Positions 13,662 to 46,102 of a stretch of DNA of 64,000 nucleotides are shown here, piece by piece (the stretch's first letter is position 1; every line of letters starts with the position of its first letter). This stretch comes from Sulfurospirillum halorespirans DSM 13726 (GTDB lineage Bacteria; Campylobacterota; Campylobacteria; Campylobacterales; Sulfurospirillaceae): contig NZ_CP017111.1 of the NCBI RefSeq assembly GCF_001723605.1, positions 2,604,001-2,668,000 of the forward strand, in the 5' to 3' direction. Both the position numbers and the translations under genes were made by a program. The notes under the pieces were generated by a model. The model was not told the origin of the DNA and searched no databases. It saw only the letters and a list, made by a program, of their open reading frames with translations.

Positions 13662-15512
13662 ATGAAAAAATTCGTGTTGTTTTTAATGGTTTTTAGCTTT
13701 TTTTATACCCCCTCTCTCTTTGCCCATGACAAAAAAATCCTCATTATCAACTCGTATCACCGAGGCTTTCAATGGAGCGATGATGTGCTTGTTGGAATGG
13801 AAGAGGTTTTTTACAACCATCCTGAAATCACCACAAACATTTTATACATGGATTCTAAGCGTATTAGCTCTGAGGAGTACTACGCGAAACTGCGCGAACT
13901 CTACAAACTTCAACTCAGAAACCATCAGTATGACCTTATCGTTGCGGTTGATAAATTCGCGTATGATTTTATTGTCAAATACTACCATGAACTCTTCACA
14001 ACGGAGCCTGTTTTGTTTACAGGGTTGGAACAATTTGAGATCGAAGATATTCAAAAAGAGGGGCTGGAAGATCGAGTTTATGGCATTTTAGAAAGACGTG
14101 CCATTCCTGAGACAATCCCGATGATTGCTAAAATGATGCCCAGCCTTAAAAAACTCTACATCATCAACGATGCGAGTGCCAATGGCGATGACAGTGAACC
14201 TTTTATACGCCAAGCGATGAGTGAGCACAACAGTGAATTTGAGATCGAGTATATCCGCTCTTCCACACTTGAAGAGCTTGAAGAGCGCTTTTCCAAACCG
14301 AACAAAGAAGAAGCGGTCTTTTTCATCCGCTTTTACAACGACAAATACGGCAATCTGTATAAAAACAGTCAAATCGCTTCCATGATCAACAAAAGCGCTT
14401 TGCCCGTTTTTATCACTGACACACTTTTCATCGAAAAAGGTGCGTTTGGCGGTAAACTGGTTCCTGTCAAAAGCGTGGGACGAATCACGGGTGAGATGGT
14501 CATCGATGTGCTCGATAAAAAACTTCAACCTTTACATGTAAAGACACTCATTGAGTACCACTACCAATTTGATGTGCAAAAAATCCAACAGTTTGGGCTC
14601 TATCCCAACGCCAGTGTTAAAGCGTTTGAGCTTGTGAATGCGCCGCTAACGTTTTTTGACAAGCACCGAAAATTCGTCGATGCCGTCTTTTTGATCTCAC
14701 CTTTTTTACTCTTTTTGGTTTTGGGGATTATTCATAACATCTACATGCGTATTCGCAGCGAAAAGGAACTGAAGGCGATTGAGCTGCAAAAAAATAAACA
14801 CCAGCAGTTCATCATCCAACAGTCCAAGCTCGCCGAAATTGGCGAAATCTTCTCTTCCATCGCGCATCAGTGGAAAAATCCTTTGGTCGAGATCGCAACC
14901 ATCGCACAAGAGCATGTTTACAGCTCCGCCGACCAAGGCGATGAACAGAGTAATGAGTATGTGAACGCCATCATGGTGCAAGTGCGCTACATGACCGACA
15001 CGATCAACGACTTTCAAAAATTCATTATGCCTTCCACGCAACGAACGGTTTTTGATGTCAATGAGGCGATTGAGACGATGATGAAAATCATCAGTCATAA
15101 CATCAAATACAACTACATTGACGTCAGCATCGATGTAAGCCATGCCACAAACGTAATGGTCAGCGGCTATAAAAATGAGTTTATGCAAACCCTGCTCAAC
15201 ATCGTCAACAACGCCAAAGATCAGATCAAAGAGACGCGCGAGAACAAACAGATCAAGCGAGGGATCATCTCCATTCGCATTTACAATCATTCCAAAAAAG
15301 TCATTATCGACATCAAAGATAACGGCGGAGGCATCCCCATCGATAAACTCCCCAATATTTTTGATGCCTACTACACCACCAAAGAGAGTGGTCATGGGAT
15401 CGGTCTTTACATGTCAAAGCTCATCATCGAAGATAAAATGGGCGGAAAAATACGCGTAAGCAACACCTTAGAGGGCGCTTGCTTTTCGATTACACTAGGA
15501 AATATATCATGA
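13662..15512 (+). CDS. Membrane sensor histidine kinase with periplasmic substrate-binding-like domain
   Basis: The start is set at ATG 13662 (MKKFVLFLMVFSFFY, a signal peptide/anchor), giving 616 residues. The periplasmic part (about 25-330, beginning KKILIINSYHRGFQW) resembles ABC substrate-binding-like sensor domains. A membrane helix follows (AVFLISPFLLFLVLGII), then a kinase core: H box SIAHQWKNPL, N box NIVNNAKDQI, glycine boxes DNGGGIP and GHGIGLYMSKL. It overlaps the regulator gene by four bases. Downstream of aspartase, dcu and asparaginase genes, it probably senses an amino acid or dicarboxylate; that is inference. Confidence 0.85.
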   Translation: MKKFVLFLMVFSFFYTPSLFAHDKKILIINSYHRGFQWSDDVLVGMEEVFYNHPEITTNILYMDSKRISSEEYYAKLRELYKLQLRNHQYDLIVAVDKFAYDFIVKYYHELFTTEPVLFTGLEQFEIEDIQKEGLEDRVYGILERRAIPETIPMIAKMMPSLKKLYIINDASANGDDSEPFIRQAMSEHNSEFEIEYIRSSTLEELEERFSKPNKEEAVFFIRFYNDKYGNLYKNSQIASMINKSALPVFITDTLFIEKGAFGGKLVPVKSVGRITGEMVIDVLDKKLQPLHVKTLIEYHYQFDVQKIQQFGLYPNASVKAFELVNAPLTFFDKHRKFVDAVFLISPFLLFLVLGIIHNIYMRIRSEKELKAIELQKNKHQQFIIQQSKLAEIGEIFSSIAHQWKNPLVEIATIAQEHVYSSADQGDEQSNEYVNAIMVQVRYMTDTINDFQKFIMPSTQRTVFDVNEAIETMMKIISHNIKYNYIDVSIDVSHATNVMVSGYKNEFMQTLLNIVNNAKDQIKETRENKQIKRGIISIRIYNHSKKVIIDIKDNGGGIPIDKLPNIFDAYYTTKESGHGIGLYMSKLIIEDKMGGKIRVSNTLEGACFSITLGNIS

Positions 15513-31967: not shown

Positions 31968-34037
31968 CTATTTTGTATTTTTATTGATTACTCTTTGCGC
32001 TTCATTAACATACTCAACAGCAGCATCTAGTCGTTGTTTTGTATATTTAAATCCGTGCATACCCCATGAACCATCTTTTTCAAGAAGGTCTACGGTCTCT
32101 TGTGCTTTTTCAATCAACTCATACACTCTGGTTTTATCCGATGGCGAGAGTTTTTTGACTTCAAGCACGCCATAGAGTCCTTGGATGCTTACTTTGACCT
32201 GTGTAAATTTCTCTTTCACAGGTGTTTGCCATCCCATAACTTCATCGTACGCTTGTTTTTGATCTTTGAAGTGAAGTGTCTCTTTGAGTTCTGAAACAAT
32301 CGGACTGTGACACCCTTTTGCCTCTACTTGCTCTTTATCTGCCCATGTTGTACGTGCACATGACCACATAAGATCAATAAAGTTACGACCCTCTTCATTA
32401 CGCTCAAAATGCCAATCTTTCGCATCTCTTGGACCCGTTGCTGCTGAGCCTGGTACCAAAGATTTACGTTTTGGATCCACATCAATTTTCCAGATATGAG
32501 ACCTTCGTTGCGTATCAAATCCCGCTTGATCTTGGAACTGAACCGCATAGAAGTTTTCACAACTCATCATAAATGGCATGTGACATGTTTGACATGAATT
32601 TTTGCTGTGCGTATCCGATTTTGACTGGATGTACGCTTGCTCTTTGTGACAATCTTTACACTCTTTTTTGAGTTTTGGTTTAGTATAAAGGGAACTTAAA
32701 TAACCTTGGTTAGGGTTATAGTTCATACCTTTAATCTCTTTATCGCCCGTAACAGGTCCTGTGACATCGTGTGGATCATGGCAGGTTGCACAACGCATCC
32801 CTTTTTCATAGTGTGCAGTAAAGTACGTTTGAGCACCTTCCGTTCCACATCCAGGTCCCATAGATTTGAATTTTGAACTGAGTGCAAGGTCTGGCTTACC
32901 GACATTCGCTGGGTTTTTAGCCAAATCAGGACTGTAATCAAATCGTTGGTGACAGCGTTCACAATTTGAGATCAAAAGACCCGAACCACCTTCTAAGTGA
33001 CCGCCCGCTCCATGACACTCTTCACAGGAGACACCTTTAGAGATGGTGTGTTTTTGAAGCTCTTTCGCATTACCGAGTGCTGAGAAGAACTCGTTTTGGT
33101 TTTTAAAATCAAACTTCCAAGGGTGGCATACTTCACAATACGAAGTCGATGCTTGGAACGCCATTGATTTTTTGTATTTGGCTGCATACGACGCTAAGCC
33201 TCTTACATAACCACCATTTTCGCCATACTCTTCTAACGTTACAGGAAAATCTGGGACCCATTTTTTGATTTTCTTTGCAACTTCAGGGGTGAGGTTAAGC
33301 GCCCATGTTCTTTGCCATTGGTTTGCACCCGCGACAATTTGACCGGTACCATTTTTAAGAAGACCGCCTTCAACATGGTACGTTCCACGAAGCAACCACG
33401 CATCGAAGAAACCTAATTTTGTTCTAACATGACCTACGGTACAATAGATGATATCAGGGGTAATTCCTTTAGGGAGAATTGACGCTGTATCTTTGTCAAA
33501 CACAGGATCGGTCAAGTTGTTGTTAAACTCTGGATGTTCTCCTGGGAACCTGATTGTGGTGGCGTGTCGCGACCTGCTCCAAGTCTCATATTGCGCAGGG
33601 TGACACTCACCGCATTTCTCTGGCCCAATGAATTTATTGGGGTATTGAAGCGTTGAACCACGTGCGACCCTGTACATCATAGAACTGATGCCTTCGCCGT
33701 CACTTCGTTTAGAAGCTTTGGACATCGCTTTACCATGACCCTCAGCCACCCACTCATGCCCACGATCACCTACAGACATTTTACCAACCGTTTTTCCACC
33801 GTATTTGGTGAAGATAGGATGGTTTTTAAAGAGCCAGTCATACATAACCTGCTCTTCGACAATATAGTCTTGCAACGAGATAACGCCTCTGCTTTCCTTT
33901 GTCCCTTTCGGATTAGCAATGACATCTCTTGCTTCCTTAGTCATTTGCATCCCCTCCATTCCTTCGGCGTTTAGACCAACGGAAAAGAGATTGATGCACA
34001 TGAATAAACCAAGTAACACTTTGTCCCAATTTTTCAT
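31968..34037 (-). CDS. mccA: Octahaem copper sulfite reductase MccA
   Basis: 689 residues with signal peptide (to about LNAEG). Seven CxxCH haem sites begin at C142, C301, C338, C359, C416, C460 and C482. The eighth is the rare CX15CH, C560 to C576-H577. Two free cysteines, C397 (GPGCGTE) and C493 (MMSCENF), fall where Wolinella MccA binds Cu(I) (Cys399/Cys495 as I recall). It reduces sulfite to sulfide by six electrons in the periplasm. It is first in the operon with mccBCD and ccsA; a sensor-regulator pair lies upstream on the same strand. Function is assigned by motif and synteny. Confidence 0.95.
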   Translation of the reverse strand: MKNWDKVLLGLFMCINLFSVGLNAEGMEGMQMTKEARDVIANPKGTKESRGVISLQDYIVEEQVMYDWLFKNHPIFTKYGGKTVGKMSVGDRGHEWVAEGHGKAMSKASKRSDGEGISSMMYRVARGSTLQYPNKFIGPEKCGECHPAQYETWSRSRHATTIRFPGEHPEFNNNLTDPVFDKDTASILPKGITPDIIYCTVGHVRTKLGFFDAWLLRGTYHVEGGLLKNGTGQIVAGANQWQRTWALNLTPEVAKKIKKWVPDFPVTLEEYGENGGYVRGLASYAAKYKKSMAFQASTSYCEVCHPWKFDFKNQNEFFSALGNAKELQKHTISKGVSCEECHGAGGHLEGGSGLLISNCERCHQRFDYSPDLAKNPANVGKPDLALSSKFKSMGPGCGTEGAQTYFTAHYEKGMRCATCHDPHDVTGPVTGDKEIKGMNYNPNQGYLSSLYTKPKLKKECKDCHKEQAYIQSKSDTHSKNSCQTCHMPFMMSCENFYAVQFQDQAGFDTQRRSHIWKIDVDPKRKSLVPGSAATGPRDAKDWHFERNEEGRNFIDLMWSCARTTWADKEQVEAKGCHSPIVSELKETLHFKDQKQAYDEVMGWQTPVKEKFTQVKVSIQGLYGVLEVKKLSPSDKTRVYELIEKAQETVDLLEKDGSWGMHGFKYTKQRLDAAVEYVNEAQRVINKNTK

Positions 34038-34203
34038 GTTTCCTCCTTTGAAAAATTGAATCTCTCATCACCTTTACCTTTTCATAACCATGAAAAAATG
34101 TCAATGAATTCAAGATCAACCAGCACGAATGCCTCATTGGAAATACTATCAGGAAAAAAGGGGAGAAAAGGGGGAAGTATTAAATTTGTATTAAATATAA
34201 AAA
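34038..34203 (-). promoter_or_regulatory. Upstream region of the mcc operon
   Basis: 166 bases between the sensor kinase stop and mccA. It contains a G-rich stretch (AAAAAGGGGAGAAAAGGGGG at about 34156), AT-rich sequence and AGGAGGAAAC as ribosome site for mccA. A promoter for the operon must lie here or upstream; I cannot define the regulator site. Confidence 0.5.
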
Positions 34204-35619
34204 CTAAAAGATAATTGTAAACATAACGCCGTCATCAACATTTTCAACGCGCAGTGTGGCACCATTTTTTTCGATGATCATCTGACTCATGTAAAGCCCA
34301 AGCCCACTGCTGGACTCTTTGGTCGTAAAGTAAGGGTCAAAGATTTTCTCAATGATCGCATCTTCAATGCGTCCTGCATTGTTTTGAAGCGTGATGACAG
34401 GAATGTCATTGTCTAAAAAAGCGGTAATTTCAATGATTCGCTCTTTGATTTCACGCGCCAAAAACGCCTCTTTGGCATTATTCATGATGTTAATGAGCAC
34501 TTGAACAATCTCATTGGCATGTCCTAAGCGTGTAAAGTTGCTTTGAATGTCGATGTGCACGGCAATGGCATACTTTTCCAACGAAGCACTGAGGAGCTTT
34601 TGAGCTCGGTAAATCACCTCTTGCGCACTAAACTCTTTGTTGGAAGTGTCAGGCACAAAAAAGTTTTTAAAATCATCAATCGTGCTTGACATAAAGCAAA
34701 GTTGTTCATTCGCCTCTTTGATCTTTTGCGTCAGTTTCTCTTTGGTGAGTTTGTCTTTGTCGCTGTGCAGTTCAAGATTGATCAAAATGGTTCCTACTTG
34801 TGCGAGGGGTTGGCGCCACTGGTGCGAGATATTACCGATCATTTCACCCATCGAAGCGAGGCGGTTTTGACTCATCATCAGCATATTGGTCTTCTCTTTG
34901 AGACGCTGTTCGTTTCGGTAAATTTTGTAGATAAACAGAATAAAAACAATAAAAACGATCAACATAACCGTTCCACCCACCACAAACTCTTTCACATGGT
35001 AGGTCAAAATGCTGTAGACGGGGATTTTTAAAGAGAGCATCGCTATGACATCGCCTACTTTGCTCTCAAAGGTTGGAATATGATGGTACTGCTCGATCAT
35101 CGCCTTAGGGGCGCTGTTGGTCGTGTGGCATTGCAGACAGGACTCTTGAGAGTTATGAATCGGAAGGCTCACGTAAAAATAGCGCGTTCCTTTTTCATTG
35201 ATGATGCTAGAGTACTCTTTGCTTTTACCCTCTTTGAAAGTCTCTAAAATCTCATTTTCAAACGCATTGCCCTCGTGGTCAGGGTTGAGCGGATCGGTTG
35301 CGACCAGTTTGTAGTCATAATTGATGTTCTTTTTCTCTTTTTGAATGTTGTAAATTTCACGCGTAATGTACGAAGAAGAGAGCAGCCTCGGATCGAAAAA
35401 ATCCTCCACCAACAGCTTCTTCTCTTTTAACTCTTCAATCAAGGGGCGTTGCACCAACGAGATGTAATCGCGAATCGCGTTCATCGTATCTAACACAAAA
35501 AAGGCCTCTTGCCTGGCATCTTTCATCGCAAGTTCGCGATAAAAATTGAAAAAAAGCAACGTAATGATCGCGTAAAGCACCACAAAAAGCGCTACGATGA
35601 CTTTGAAACTATATTTCAC
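34204..35619 (-). CDS. Haem-binding periplasmic sensor histidine kinase (MccS-like)
   Basis: The likely start is GTG at 35619 (MKYSFKVIVALFVVLY), overlapping the regulator stop by 11 bases; 471 residues. Helix 8-27, a periplasmic sensor of the DUF3365/Tll0287-like type with a single c-haem motif CLQCH at 161-165, then a second helix (GTVMLIVFIVFILFIYKIY) and a kinase core: H box ISHQWRQPLAQ, N box NIMNNAKEAF, GLGLYMSQM. The haem could sense sulfite, NO or redox state. It lies directly upstream of mccA, matching the MccRS pair recalled next to mcc in Wolinella. Confidence 0.85.
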   Translation of the reverse strand: MKYSFKVIVALFVVLYAIITLLFFNFYRELAMKDARQEAFFVLDTMNAIRDYISLVQRPLIEELKEKKLLVEDFFDPRLLSSSYITREIYNIQKEKKNINYDYKLVATDPLNPDHEGNAFENEILETFKEGKSKEYSSIINEKGTRYFYVSLPIHNSQESCLQCHTTNSAPKAMIEQYHHIPTFESKVGDVIAMLSLKIPVYSILTYHVKEFVVGGTVMLIVFIVFILFIYKIYRNEQRLKEKTNMLMMSQNRLASMGEMIGNISHQWRQPLAQVGTILINLELHSDKDKLTKEKLTQKIKEANEQLCFMSSTIDDFKNFFVPDTSNKEFSAQEVIYRAQKLLSASLEKYAIAVHIDIQSNFTRLGHANEIVQVLINIMNNAKEAFLAREIKERIIEITAFLDNDIPVITLQNNAGRIEDAIIEKIFDPYFTTKESSSGLGLYMSQMIIEKNGATLRVENVDDGVMFTIIF

Positions 35620-42528: not shown

Positions 42529-44535
42529 TTAAAACGTGTAGCGAAGGTTCGCATAGAGGTAACGACCTGGCTCATTGATCAGCATAACCGTATCATCCGA
42601 ACCAGAATAGCTCAGAAGCGTCAGATCTTTATAGGTATTGGATGTGGCATAGGTTTTATCGAAGAGATTGTCAACGCCTAGGGTGACATCAAAGTGTTTG
42701 GTCACTTTGTAGTTGTATTTGACATTAAAGACAGCGTAACCGCTTAGGGCTTGCTCGCCGTTTTCGCTATCAACATCGCTCCAACGTTTCGCCGCTACCA
42801 TCTCTGTTTTTAAAGCATGATCCCCCGTATGATAGGTCACAGACGTAACCGCGCGAAGCGGTACAATATCGGCTAAATCTTTGTCACTTTGTCCCGCCAA
42901 AGGCTCATCTTTTTGACCTTTGAGGTAACTCATTCCATAATTAAGCGTTAACGTATCGCTTATATCATAGTACGCATCAAGTTCTGCACCGTAAATGGTC
43001 GCATCAATATTGACATATTTTTTCGCATCTGCATTATAGTAGATGTAATCCTCCAAAGAGGAGTAGAACACTTTTCCTTTCACGCCAAAACCATCATAAT
43101 GCGTTTTAAACCCAAGATCCGCTTCATAGTTTGTGACTTGATCTAAAATAGCGGTTGAATTTGCAGGATGGTACAGCTCTCTCGCATCTGGCACACGAGA
43201 CGCTTTACCAAGTCCGATGAAATAATCCACATTATCGGTCGCTTTGTAGGTCAAAATGGCATTGGCAGAGAGCGCATCATAGTCGTTTTCATAGCGTTGA
43301 ACCAGCGATTGCCCTGCACGATGTGCTTTGATGGTCGTGTCATCGTAACGCGTACCCATCTGAATATTGAAACGGTCAATATTTTTCTCATAATGGGCAA
43401 AAAAGGCTTTATTGGTTGTATCAACATCGGGAATAGTGTTGGAAAGTGTTGGCGTTGTACTAGCTCCTGTTGCAACAGTGGTCATGTAACTTTCGCCATC
43501 CCAATTTCGCTTACTTACATCAATACCGTATGTAAGTTCACCGCCACCTAAATTGACAACATTTTTAAGTTTTGCACCTTCCATCTCCGTGTCCATTTTA
43601 GCCGTCATGTACATCATCGCACCCGCAACTCGGTTTTTTGTAGACATTGGATGTTCAACTTTGGATTTGTACGTTTCAAGACTCAGCTCTTTAGAGTAAG
43701 TGCCTAAATCATAAAAACTATAGCCCAATGTATAAATATCGCTATCATCACGATCTGCATCCATCGTACGCGAAGGATAGAGCACATTATCGCTACGATT
43801 GAGTGTGTAGCCTAGGCGAATCTCTTGATTCTCAACAGGATTGATAAAGATTTTGCCCATAAAAGTTTTTTTCTCATACGCCTCTAGATCACTTTTGCTG
43901 TAACGGTTCCCAGCAACACCCATGCCCTGCGCAATTGCATTGTTGATCTGGTCGGAGAAATTATCGCCATTGCCATCTTTGTACTGATCACTCTCTTCGG
44001 TAGAAGCGCTAAAAAGGGCGCGAATGTACTCGTTGCCACCGCTTGCACTCGCACTGGCTTTTTTATAGCCATAACTGCCAATGCCTAGATTGACTTCGCC
44101 ACTGGGCTCTTTGGAAGGTGTTTTGGTCTCAGCCACCACTAAACCGCTCAATGTTCCAAAATGTTCAACATCGTAAGGACCTTCAACGATTTTCACGTTT
44201 TCAATGTTATCGGCGTTGATGTGCGTAATGGCAGGATCCATCCTGTTCGGACAACCACCATACACTTTAGATTCATCGATTAAGATGTTGATATTATCTC
44301 TTTTTTGCCCACGCAAAATAATATCATTGGCAATGCCACTGCCTCGAATCAATGTAATCGATGAACTTTGACGCGAAAGCGCTTCTGCAAGATCGGCCGA
44401 TTTTAACTCTTCACCGCTAATGTCTTTCACCTCTTTTGAGAAGGTTTCACCTTCAACGGTAATGGTTTCTAAAATACCCGTTTCTGCCATTAAAAACGTC
44501 GATACGACCAACGAAATACCCAAAGCTCTTTTCAT
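42529..44535 (-). CDS. OprC/NosA-like TonB-dependent copper receptor
   Basis: 668 residues with signal peptide, plug domain and a beta-barrel ending YLYANLRYTF. In the plug, NILIDESKVYGGCPNRMDP carries C95 and M99, matching the CxxxM copper site of OprC (C143xxxM147 as I recall) and the NosA family's CPNRMDP signature. It would import copper across the outer membrane. tonB-exbD-exbB lie just upstream on the same strand. 11-bp phased repeats and a TATACT -10 element precede it, so it has its own regulated promoter. Confidence 0.82.
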   Translation of the reverse strand: MKRALGISLVVSTFLMAETGILETITVEGETFSKEVKDISGEELKSADLAEALSRQSSSITLIRGSGIANDIILRGQKRDNINILIDESKVYGGCPNRMDPAITHINADNIENVKIVEGPYDVEHFGTLSGLVVAETKTPSKEPSGEVNLGIGSYGYKKASASASGGNEYIRALFSASTEESDQYKDGNGDNFSDQINNAIAQGMGVAGNRYSKSDLEAYEKKTFMGKIFINPVENQEIRLGYTLNRSDNVLYPSRTMDADRDDSDIYTLGYSFYDLGTYSKELSLETYKSKVEHPMSTKNRVAGAMMYMTAKMDTEMEGAKLKNVVNLGGGELTYGIDVSKRNWDGESYMTTVATGASTTPTLSNTIPDVDTTNKAFFAHYEKNIDRFNIQMGTRYDDTTIKAHRAGQSLVQRYENDYDALSANAILTYKATDNVDYFIGLGKASRVPDARELYHPANSTAILDQVTNYEADLGFKTHYDGFGVKGKVFYSSLEDYIYYNADAKKYVNIDATIYGAELDAYYDISDTLTLNYGMSYLKGQKDEPLAGQSDKDLADIVPLRAVTSVTYHTGDHALKTEMVAAKRWSDVDSENGEQALSGYAVFNVKYNYKVTKHFDVTLGVDNLFDKTYATSNTYKDLTLLSYSGSDDTVMLINEPGRYLYANLRYTF

Positions 44536-44564: not shown

Positions 44565-44624
44565 AGTATAAAAAGTCTTTGTTAAATCACTGTTAAATTA
44601 GTGTCAAATTTGTGTTAAAAATTA
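44565..44624 (-). promoter_or_regulatory. Phased 11-bp repeats and -10 element before copper receptor
   Basis: Four consecutive units on the plus strand: GTTAAATCACT, GTTAAATTAGT, GTCAAATTTGT, GTTAAAAATTA (44581-44624), spaced exactly 11 bases. On the transcribed strand they lead ten bases later to TATACT (44570 to 44565). This is the usual site for an OmpR/PhoB-type activator. Two near-identical units precede exbB. Confidence 0.75.
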
Positions 44625-45263
44625 TTTTAGGCGGTAAACAATTGGCACTTTAATCGTCACATTTTCCAAAGGAATCGGAAAATAACCTTTGGCTTTGTGC
44701 ACACTCTCGATGGCAGCGCTGCTTAAAAGCTGACTTTGAGAGGTAGCTTCCACTTCTTCGACTTCGCCCGTGGGTTTGATGGTAAAACTCACTTCCACCA
44801 CACCTTCAATGGAGCGTCTTCGCGCAAGTTCGGGGTAGGATTTGGCACGTTGAAGCGCTTGGGCAATTTCATTTTTATGCAGGTCTAAATACGTTGGTGT
44901 CTCTATGGAAGATGCGCTTATTTGCGGTGTTGTAGGTGGAAGCGGTGAGGCGTCCGCTACAGGCGATGAGGCGTTATTTTCGAGAACCGTGCTTGCCATG
45001 TGATGTGAAACGGGCTTTATGGGTTTCTCTTTTTGAGGAAGTTTTTTTAAAGATGCTGATTCGTGCGGTGGCAGTGTCTCTTCTTGCGGACTTACCTCGT
45101 GTTTTGGTGCTTCACTTTGTGATATGACCGTACTGATTCGCAAGGAAACAGGCGCACTTTGAGCGAAAGTTTTTGGCTTTTCAAACGTAAATATCGTTAA
45201 GAACAGAAGCAATGCAAGATGCAAACCCAAAGAGAGCAGTAAGGCAAAACTCAGGCGTCTCAT
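44622..45263 (-). CDS. tonB: TonB protein
   Basis: 213 residues: N-terminal membrane helix (SFALLLSLGLHLALLLFLTIF), a Pro/Ser/Lys-rich spacer, and a C-terminal TonB domain (YPELARRRSIEGVVEVSFTIKPTGEVEEV, ending VPIVYRLK). It spans the periplasm to energise the receptor encoded next. It overlaps exbD by four bases. The spacer is shorter than in E. coli TonB. Confidence 0.9.
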   Translation of the reverse strand: MRRLSFALLLSLGLHLALLLFLTIFTFEKPKTFAQSAPVSLRISTVISQSEAPKHEVSPQEETLPPHESASLKKLPQKEKPIKPVSHHMASTVLENNASSPVADASPLPPTTPQISASSIETPTYLDLHKNEIAQALQRAKSYPELARRRSIEGVVEVSFTIKPTGEVEEVEATSQSQLLSSAAIESVHKAKGYFPIPLENVTIKVPIVYRLK

Positions 45264-45628
45264 TTTTCAATTACAATATCAATCGATTTAAAATGATGCG
45301 CATTGAGCATATCCAAAAGAGCTACAAAAAACTCAAACGGAGCTTGTTTAGCACAGTTGATCGAAAAGCGTGTTTCGCTGGCGAGCGTTTCAAGATGGCT
45401 TTGGAGTGCTTCATGAGAAATAGGAGATTTTTCTAAAAAGAGCGCACCCTGCTCATCGATGCTTAAAACCACACTGGAAGGCTCTAGCGTCTGGGTTGAA
45501 GCCGATTTTGGCACATCGATGGGCAAAATCCCTTTGGCGATAAACGTCGATGTCATCAGCACAATTGTCAATAAAACGAGCAAAATATCGACAAAAGGAA
45601 TGACGTTGATGCTATCAAATTTCTTCAT
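45260..45628 (-). CDS. exbD: ExbD-type proton channel subunit
   Basis: 122 residues: one membrane helix with the essential aspartate in VIPFVDILLVLLTIVLM, then a small periplasmic domain with IDVPKS. It forms the motor with ExbB and TonB. It overlaps both neighbours, indicating tight coupling. Confidence 0.92.
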   Translation of the reverse strand: MKKFDSINVIPFVDILLVLLTIVLMTSTFIAKGILPIDVPKSASTQTLEPSSVVLSIDEQGALFLEKSPISHEALQSHLETLASETRFSINCAKQAPFEFFVALLDMLNAHHFKSIDIVIEK

Positions 45629-46031
45629 CGAACACTGCTAAAAATCGCTCAGAGTAACGCACTAAAATGTTATTAAACACCATCGATAAAATGGCGACAA
45701 CAAGCCCAACCGCCGTCGTTTTAAGCGCTAAAGCAAGAGAGCTCATAATTTTGGAAGTCTCAATGCTCTGTTCTGACATATTCGTAAAAGTGAGCATAAT
45801 CGCAAGAACCGTGCCTAAAAGCCCGATGTAAGGCGCATTGGAGGTAATGGTGGCGATGGTGGTGAGGTGATTGCTCAGCGCAATTTCAAGTGATTTTTTA
45901 GTTTTATACGACGTTACATTCAAGGCTTTATAGAAAACAATACGCTCGACAAAAAGCCCACACGAGATGATACTCATCGCAAAAAGCAGTCCCATAACGC
46001 CATAATCAATCGCAAATTTAAGATACTCCAC
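45615..46031 (-). CDS. exbB: ExbB-type proton channel subunit
   Basis: 138 residues with three membrane helices and the core TSNAPYIGLLGTVLAIMLTF and ALALKTTAVGLVVAILSMV, the short ExbB form common in this phylum. Start is GTG at 46031 after GAGGAGC. First gene of exbB-exbD-tonB; phased 11-bp repeats lie upstream. Confidence 0.92.
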   Translation of the reverse strand: MEYLKFAIDYGVMGLLFAMSIISCGLFVERIVFYKALNVTSYKTKKSLEIALSNHLTTIATITSNAPYIGLLGTVLAIMLTFTNMSEQSIETSKIMSSLALALKTTAVGLVVAILSMVFNNILVRYSERFLAVFDEEI

Positions 46032-46039
46032 ACGTGCTC

Positions 46040-46066
46040 CTCACCCCTATTTTCCTAAGGGGTGAG
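46040..46066 (-). terminator. Hairpin between selD and exbB
   Basis: CTCACCCC pairs with GGGGTGAG over an 11-base loop, ten bases ahead of the exbB start. It lies inside the exbB leader if transcription starts at the phased repeats, so it could be a selD terminator, an attenuator, or both; the exbB ribosome site directly follows the stem. Confidence 0.55.
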
Positions 46067-46080
46067 TTTATAAAGCAAGT

Positions 46081-46102
46081 GTTAAATTAGTGTTAAATTG
46101 TT
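46081..46102 (-). promoter_or_regulatory. Phased 11-bp repeats before exbB
   Basis: GTTAAATTAGT followed by GTTAAATTGTT, same unit and same 11-base spacing as in front of the copper receptor. On the transcribed strand TTATAAA follows within about ten bases. The repeats overlap the selD stop codon and a palindrome copy. Confidence 0.7.

Follow-up and report, generated by a model that had tools for sequence, protein, structure and literature searches.

An 11-bp direct-repeat box before copper-uptake genes of Sulfurospirillum and other Campylobacterota, a probable OmpR-type operator

In Sulfurospirillum halorespirans DSM 13726, a direct-repeat box (core TTAACA-N5-TTAACA, period 11) replaces the -35 element, 9 nt before the -10, at the promoters of a TonB-dependent copper receptor, the TonB/ExbBD genes and a gene with a double NosL domain. 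Comparison of these promoters within the genus and across the phylum suggests that the box is an OmpR/PhoB-family operator which would control copper acquisition throughout Campylobacterota under one type of two-component system (L035), by the mechanism set out below; we consider this reading, as a whole, probable. The kind of operator (OmpR-type) is already known. No description of a phylum-wide copper-acquisition regulon with its likely regulator was found in the open-access literature searched, which is not proof of absence since most subscription papers lie outside that search.

The window, a stretch of 64,000 nt, lies within a closed genome of 3.03 Mb (G000), which was compared with 24 congeneric genomes. 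The relevant features, all on the minus strand, are as follows.

31968..34037, minus: mccA-like multiheme cytochrome of the copper sulfite reductase type (identified from cluster and sequence reading)
34179..34196, minus: degenerate box TTTAATA-CAAA-TTTAATA upstream of mccA (13 of 14 bases in seven related genomes)
42529..44535, minus: OprC/NosA-type TonB-dependent copper receptor, with CxxxM (95-99) and HxM (295-297)
44565..44570, minus: predicted -10 TATACT of the receptor, 9 nt past the last unit (spacing shared by 49 of 61 phylum promoters)
44580..44597, minus: exact box TTTAACA-GTGA-TTTAACA, receptor promoter (kept before 16 of 16 genus orthologs)
44602..44619, minus: two extra in-register units TTTAACA-CAAA-TTTGACA, one mismatch
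44622..45263, minus: tonB (PF03544)
45260..45628, minus: exbD (PF02472)
45615..46031, minus: exbB (PF01618)
46065..46070, minus: predicted -10 TAAACT of exbB, 9 nt past the last unit
46080..46097, minus: exact box TTTAACA-CTAA-TTTAACA, exbB promoter, immediately 3' of the selD stop

The copper ligands of the receptor (C95, M99, H295 and M297) are invariant among 12 ortholog sequences and correspond to the CxxxM-HxM motif described for OprC (PMC8610252), which was also the sole TonB-receptor match in a comparison with solved structures. The best NCBIfam match, TIGR01778, scored 190.9 bits, below the equivalog cut-off of 472.45, so the protein is designated OprC-like and not a certified equivalog. 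NosA and NosL have been tied to the copper supply of N2O reductase, chiefly at low copper (PMC7558416).

The GTTAAAT units before the receptor start at 44581, 44592, 44603 and 44614, in a register of exactly 11 bases, and those before exbB at 46081 and 46092. Since both genes lie on the minus strand, the sense unit is TTTAACA-N4 with a period of 11. Read in the sense direction, the receptor promoter is TTTAACA CAAA TTTGACA CTAA TTTAACA GTGA TTTAACA AAGACTTTT TATACT and the exbB promoter TTTAACA CTAA TTTAACA CTTGCTTTA TAAACT; in both, the last unit and the -10 hexamer are exactly 9 nt apart. The original prediction of four receptor units was right as to the register, with two units exact and two carrying one mismatch (GTCAAAT, the third, and GTTAAAA, the fourth), and the two identical units that it placed before exbB are indeed exact. 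Its -10 at the receptor, TATACT, was recovered; at exbB the hexamer at 9 nt is TAAACT (46070-46065), overlapping the TATAAA originally named. The window contains 2 exact double units, versus 0 in 200 first-order Markov sequences; the repeats are genuine and far above chance expectation. They had been described as unique within the window, which is true of exact copies but not of the element, since the degenerate pair at 34179-34196 before mccA belongs to it. The four-unit receptor box was found only in the nearest relatives, G006, G008 and G012.

A search of G000 for double units at 11-base spacing returned only four exact boxes: at the receptor, at exbB, at a NosL-like protein with two NosL stretches (2969691) and beside nosZ, between nosZ and a histidine-kinase gene. 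The reversed-pattern control gave 0 sites at zero mismatches. With one mismatch there were 16 sites in all versus 9 in the reversed control, and such sites within this genome are mostly uninformative. The 24 congeneric genomes yielded 39 exact boxes versus 5 reversed controls; sorted by neighbouring gene, 10 lie at the receptor, 5 at exbB, 11 at the NosL-like gene, 8 on the nosZ side and 5 elsewhere, placing 34 of 39 at the same genes as in G000. The small regulon and the copper theme originally proposed both survive this search, with boxes at the OprC-type receptor, exbB and the NosL-like gene. The receptor box is kept in 16 of 16 orthologs (12 to 14 of 14 bases) in diverged flanking sequence, and the NosL-like box in 16 of 20, the exceptions (G002, G003, G015 and G016) being genomes without the receptor. 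On one contig (L063, G022:C127), another TonB-dependent receptor has a box before it, and a NosL-domain stretch lies ~3.5 kb further on.

In GTDB genomes, 80 receptor loci were found by scanning, and 77 of them were analysed. At least 12 of 14 box bases were present within 250 nt before the receptor in 61 of the 77 loci (1.45 expected from shuffles), and only period 11 was enriched, other periods reaching at most 7/77 (background). The exact 11-bp-period core TAACA-N6-TAACA occurs in 59 of the 68 loci not labelled Gammaproteobacteria (shuffles, 0.05 of 77), or in 65 of 68 with one mismatch allowed, and in 0 of the 9 loci labelled gammaproteobacterial. The phylum consensus is nTTAACACWWAWnTTAACAC, followed at 9 nt by a TAtAAT-like -10 in 49 of 61 promoters; in at least 98% of phylum boxes both units have C at base 6 and so do not conform to a TTTAAG unit. 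At loci outside Sulfurospirillum, 60 boxes of at least 14/16 were found versus 1 with the reversed consensus, and they precede receptor, tonB and NosL-like genes and once a response regulator; in L346 the box stands before an RR-oprC-exbBD-tonB cluster. The repeats are conserved before orthologous loci (16/16 genus receptors and 59/68 wider loci), as the original proposal required, and the observation is more general than originally supposed; the exclusive enrichment of period 11 together with the -10 at 9 nt agrees with the head-to-tail OmpR/PhoB-type layout that had been predicted. A metagenome bin titled Helicobacter pylori PMSS1 (L292) also has a receptor locus with a box, the title probably being a mislabel. 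In S. cavolei and G009 (L249 and L252), genes read as MsrPQ-like from translated ORFs adjoin the copper receptor.

Boxes in other placements differ in geometry. Before mccA, the conserved copy lies ~158 nt upstream and is immediately followed by CCCCTTTT repeats, which MccR may use; this arrangement implies that sulfite respiration may receive copper input. The nosZ-side box is oriented away from nosZ and is flanked by the nosZ start codon on one side and by a conserved block, TATGGAATTCTATAATAGAGTCAGTTTCTTTTGAGTCGCT (L075:10786-10963; G000:C1:357786-357963), on the other. This block may represent the nosZ promoter, read from the opposite strand, or else the beginning of a small RNA. The latter idea arises from the adjacency of block and box; a small RNA from this box was considered and not established. 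At neither nosZ nor mccA was the 9-nt spacing to a -10, i.e. the activating geometry, found. A box with -10 spacing also precedes a cytochrome-bd-like gene pair (L079:4068-4085; G000:C1:146067-146084) and is kept in six Sulfurospirillum genomes. Since the Pfam match of the first gene of the pair is barely above the cut-off, we treat a switch to a copper-free oxidase as no more than a lead.

The genome of G000 has 49 OmpR-type matches. Neighbourhood, phylogeny and helix similarity point to the L035 type, and the box regulator is probably one two-component system of that type, whose response regulator lies outside the window (G000:C1:167344-168006), followed by its kinase gene. About 20 other Campylobacterota receptor loci carry an L035-type system, 16 recognised by the response regulator and 4 by the kinase only. 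The receptor-adjacent response regulators, except L294 and the HvfA-linked system of S. cavolei and UBA4058, form one clade with support of 91/93, below the strict threshold, which contains just three G000 proteins (L029, L035 and L077-minus); a large Sulfurovum group of them is sister to the L035 orthologs (96/90). Their recognition helices resemble that of L035, and for 17 of 22 receptor-adjacent kinases the best match, out of four G000 kinases compared, is that of L035. L035 is present in 24 of 24 genomes, including genomes without boxes. In Sulfurospirillum the system lies away from copper genes, mostly behind a pyrC-like gene; a box-like element with one core mismatch precedes the L035 gene in G002, G003 and G020, and none was found there in most Sulfurospirillum genomes. 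No recognisable copper-sensing domain was detected in the L035 kinase by family search.

The two OmpR-type regulators encoded in the window, at 15509 and 35609, had been put forward for binding tests, and neither is supported as the best candidate. The MccR-like regulator at 35609 (L036) is an unlikely candidate, having no close ortholog in G018 (86% complete), whose NosL-like box is intact; that at 15509 (L229) is conserved, yet does not belong to the receptor-adjacent clade. The expected profile (absent from G003, present in G010 and G018) is shown by L034 and L045, but these adjoin respiratory or TRAP-transporter genes and fall outside the same clade. The HvfA-side system (L077:14045-14698), which lies near the receptor in S. 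cavolei, was rejected, as it is missing from G001, G004, G006, G007, G008, G012, G017 and G019, all of which carry boxes. In that region (L077:13150-14700; G000:C1:1298150-1299700), genes for an HvfA-like Cys-rich small protein and a DoxX-like protein precede this further two-component system, and TGTCAC repeats at 11 bp lie upstream; the whole has the look of an independent metal or redox operon.

The same operator and regulon might instead be bound by another member of the receptor-linked clade, either L029 (G000:C1:148102-148773) or L077-minus (1294222-1294854). Systems of the L029 type lie next to the receptor in L287, L298, L328 and L330, and L029 is present in 23 of 24 genomes; the L077-minus promoter itself has a conserved box-like element with 9-nt spacing, and none of the six genomes that lack the regulon encodes L077-minus. 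These types, however, have fewer receptor neighbourhoods than the L035 type and recognition helices that differ more, and L077-minus was rejected as sole regulator because it is missing from four well-covered genomes that retain boxes (G001, G005, G017 and G023), so that we rate such an exchange of regulators as fairly unlikely. That the signal is an electron acceptor (N2O or sulfite), with copper genes co-induced with the respiratory enzymes they serve, would agree with the boxes beside nosZ and upstream of mccA and with the anaerobic increase of Pseudomonas OprC with nitrate (PMC7558416). Against this, the activating geometry occurs at the receptor, exbB and NosL-like promoters and is absent at nosZ and mccA, and many box-carrying receptor loci have only uptake genes within the stretch fetched. 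Sulfite respiration, one of the two signals originally suggested, has limited support, a related box being present before mccA but in a different geometry; we hold an electron-acceptor signal to be unlikely and favour copper limitation, the other.

Two known kinds of operator are built on a similar plan. That of CosR/HsrA, an essential orphan regulator (HP1043 type), is TTTAAG-N5-TTTAAG with an 11-bp period just before the -10 (PMC5253667), almost the architecture seen here, and the CosR-like protein L024 is 100% identical among three genomes compared. A box of this kind is nevertheless very unlikely here, as base 6 of the unit is C and not G, and HP1043 binding suffers when the A and G are mutated (PMC5253667). 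In addition, the targets are few and copper-related and are not translation genes, and the receptor-adjacent regulators are phylogenetically not CosR. The Bacillus Pho box consensus is TTAACA-like. Boxes of the PhoB/PhoP family are likewise 11-bp direct repeats (PMC4415409), but no phosphate-uptake genes were recognised among the exact or one-mismatch sites inspected, and all identified box partners are copper-related; we consider a phosphate box very improbable.

Under the L035-type reading, a regulator dimer would bind the box head-to-tail along a single helix face and recruit RNA polymerase, most likely under copper scarcity; activation would increase copper import across the outer membrane, the energization of that import and periplasmic delivery. 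The acting regulator would be the receptor-linked system, with the L035 response regulator and the kinase following it as the local counterpart. If this regulator is a copper-limitation activator, the differently placed boxes at mccA and nosZ could let it tune or restrain copper enzymes, which is the least certain step. More speculatively, we propose a dedicated copper-limitation two-component system whose kinase has no recognisable metal-sensing domain and whose regulon is ancestral to Campylobacterota; it would activate import and delivery through one box and, through boxes placed elsewhere, restrain nosZ and mccA (copper sparing); this extended proposal is tentative and, taken whole, somewhat unlikely.

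Little is known of how Gram-negative bacteria sense and respond to a shortage of copper. MccA, a heme-copper sulfite reductase, and N2O reductase both need a copper supply, and the regulon is relevant to the conditions under which these bacteria can remove N2O. Since the operator is phylum-wide, its targets are defined and the candidate regulators number one or two, the question can be tested directly in cultured Sulfurospirillum.

The box resembles the HP1043/HsrA operator of Helicobacter pylori (PMC5253667), from the same phylum, in having two coding-strand direct repeats at 11 bp which replace the -35 before the -10, but differs from it in the C for G at base 6, in its few copper-related targets and in its inferred regulator. 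With the PHO boxes of PhoB/PhoP (PMC4415409) it shares 11-bp direct-repeat units, bound there head-to-tail by OmpR/PhoB-family regulators as is inferred here, whereas no phosphate genes were recognised at the present sites. The receptor belongs to the same family as Pseudomonas OprC/NosA, with the same CxxxM-HxM site; those proteins are repressed by copper, and P. aeruginosa OprC is reported to be under CueR, whereas the receptor described here has a conserved OmpR-type box instead (PMC8610252, PMC7558416). The CruR-CrtA system of Bordetella (PMC12914433) is likewise a copper-controlled TonB-dependent copper receptor, but of another receptor family and under post-transcriptional control by an upstream ORF. 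H. pylori CrdRS (PMC9449129) is, like the L035 type, a Campylobacterota OmpR-type two-component system, and it has a link to copper, as the L035 type probably does; CrdRS, however, is tied to copper resistance (excess) and not to an OprC-type uptake locus.
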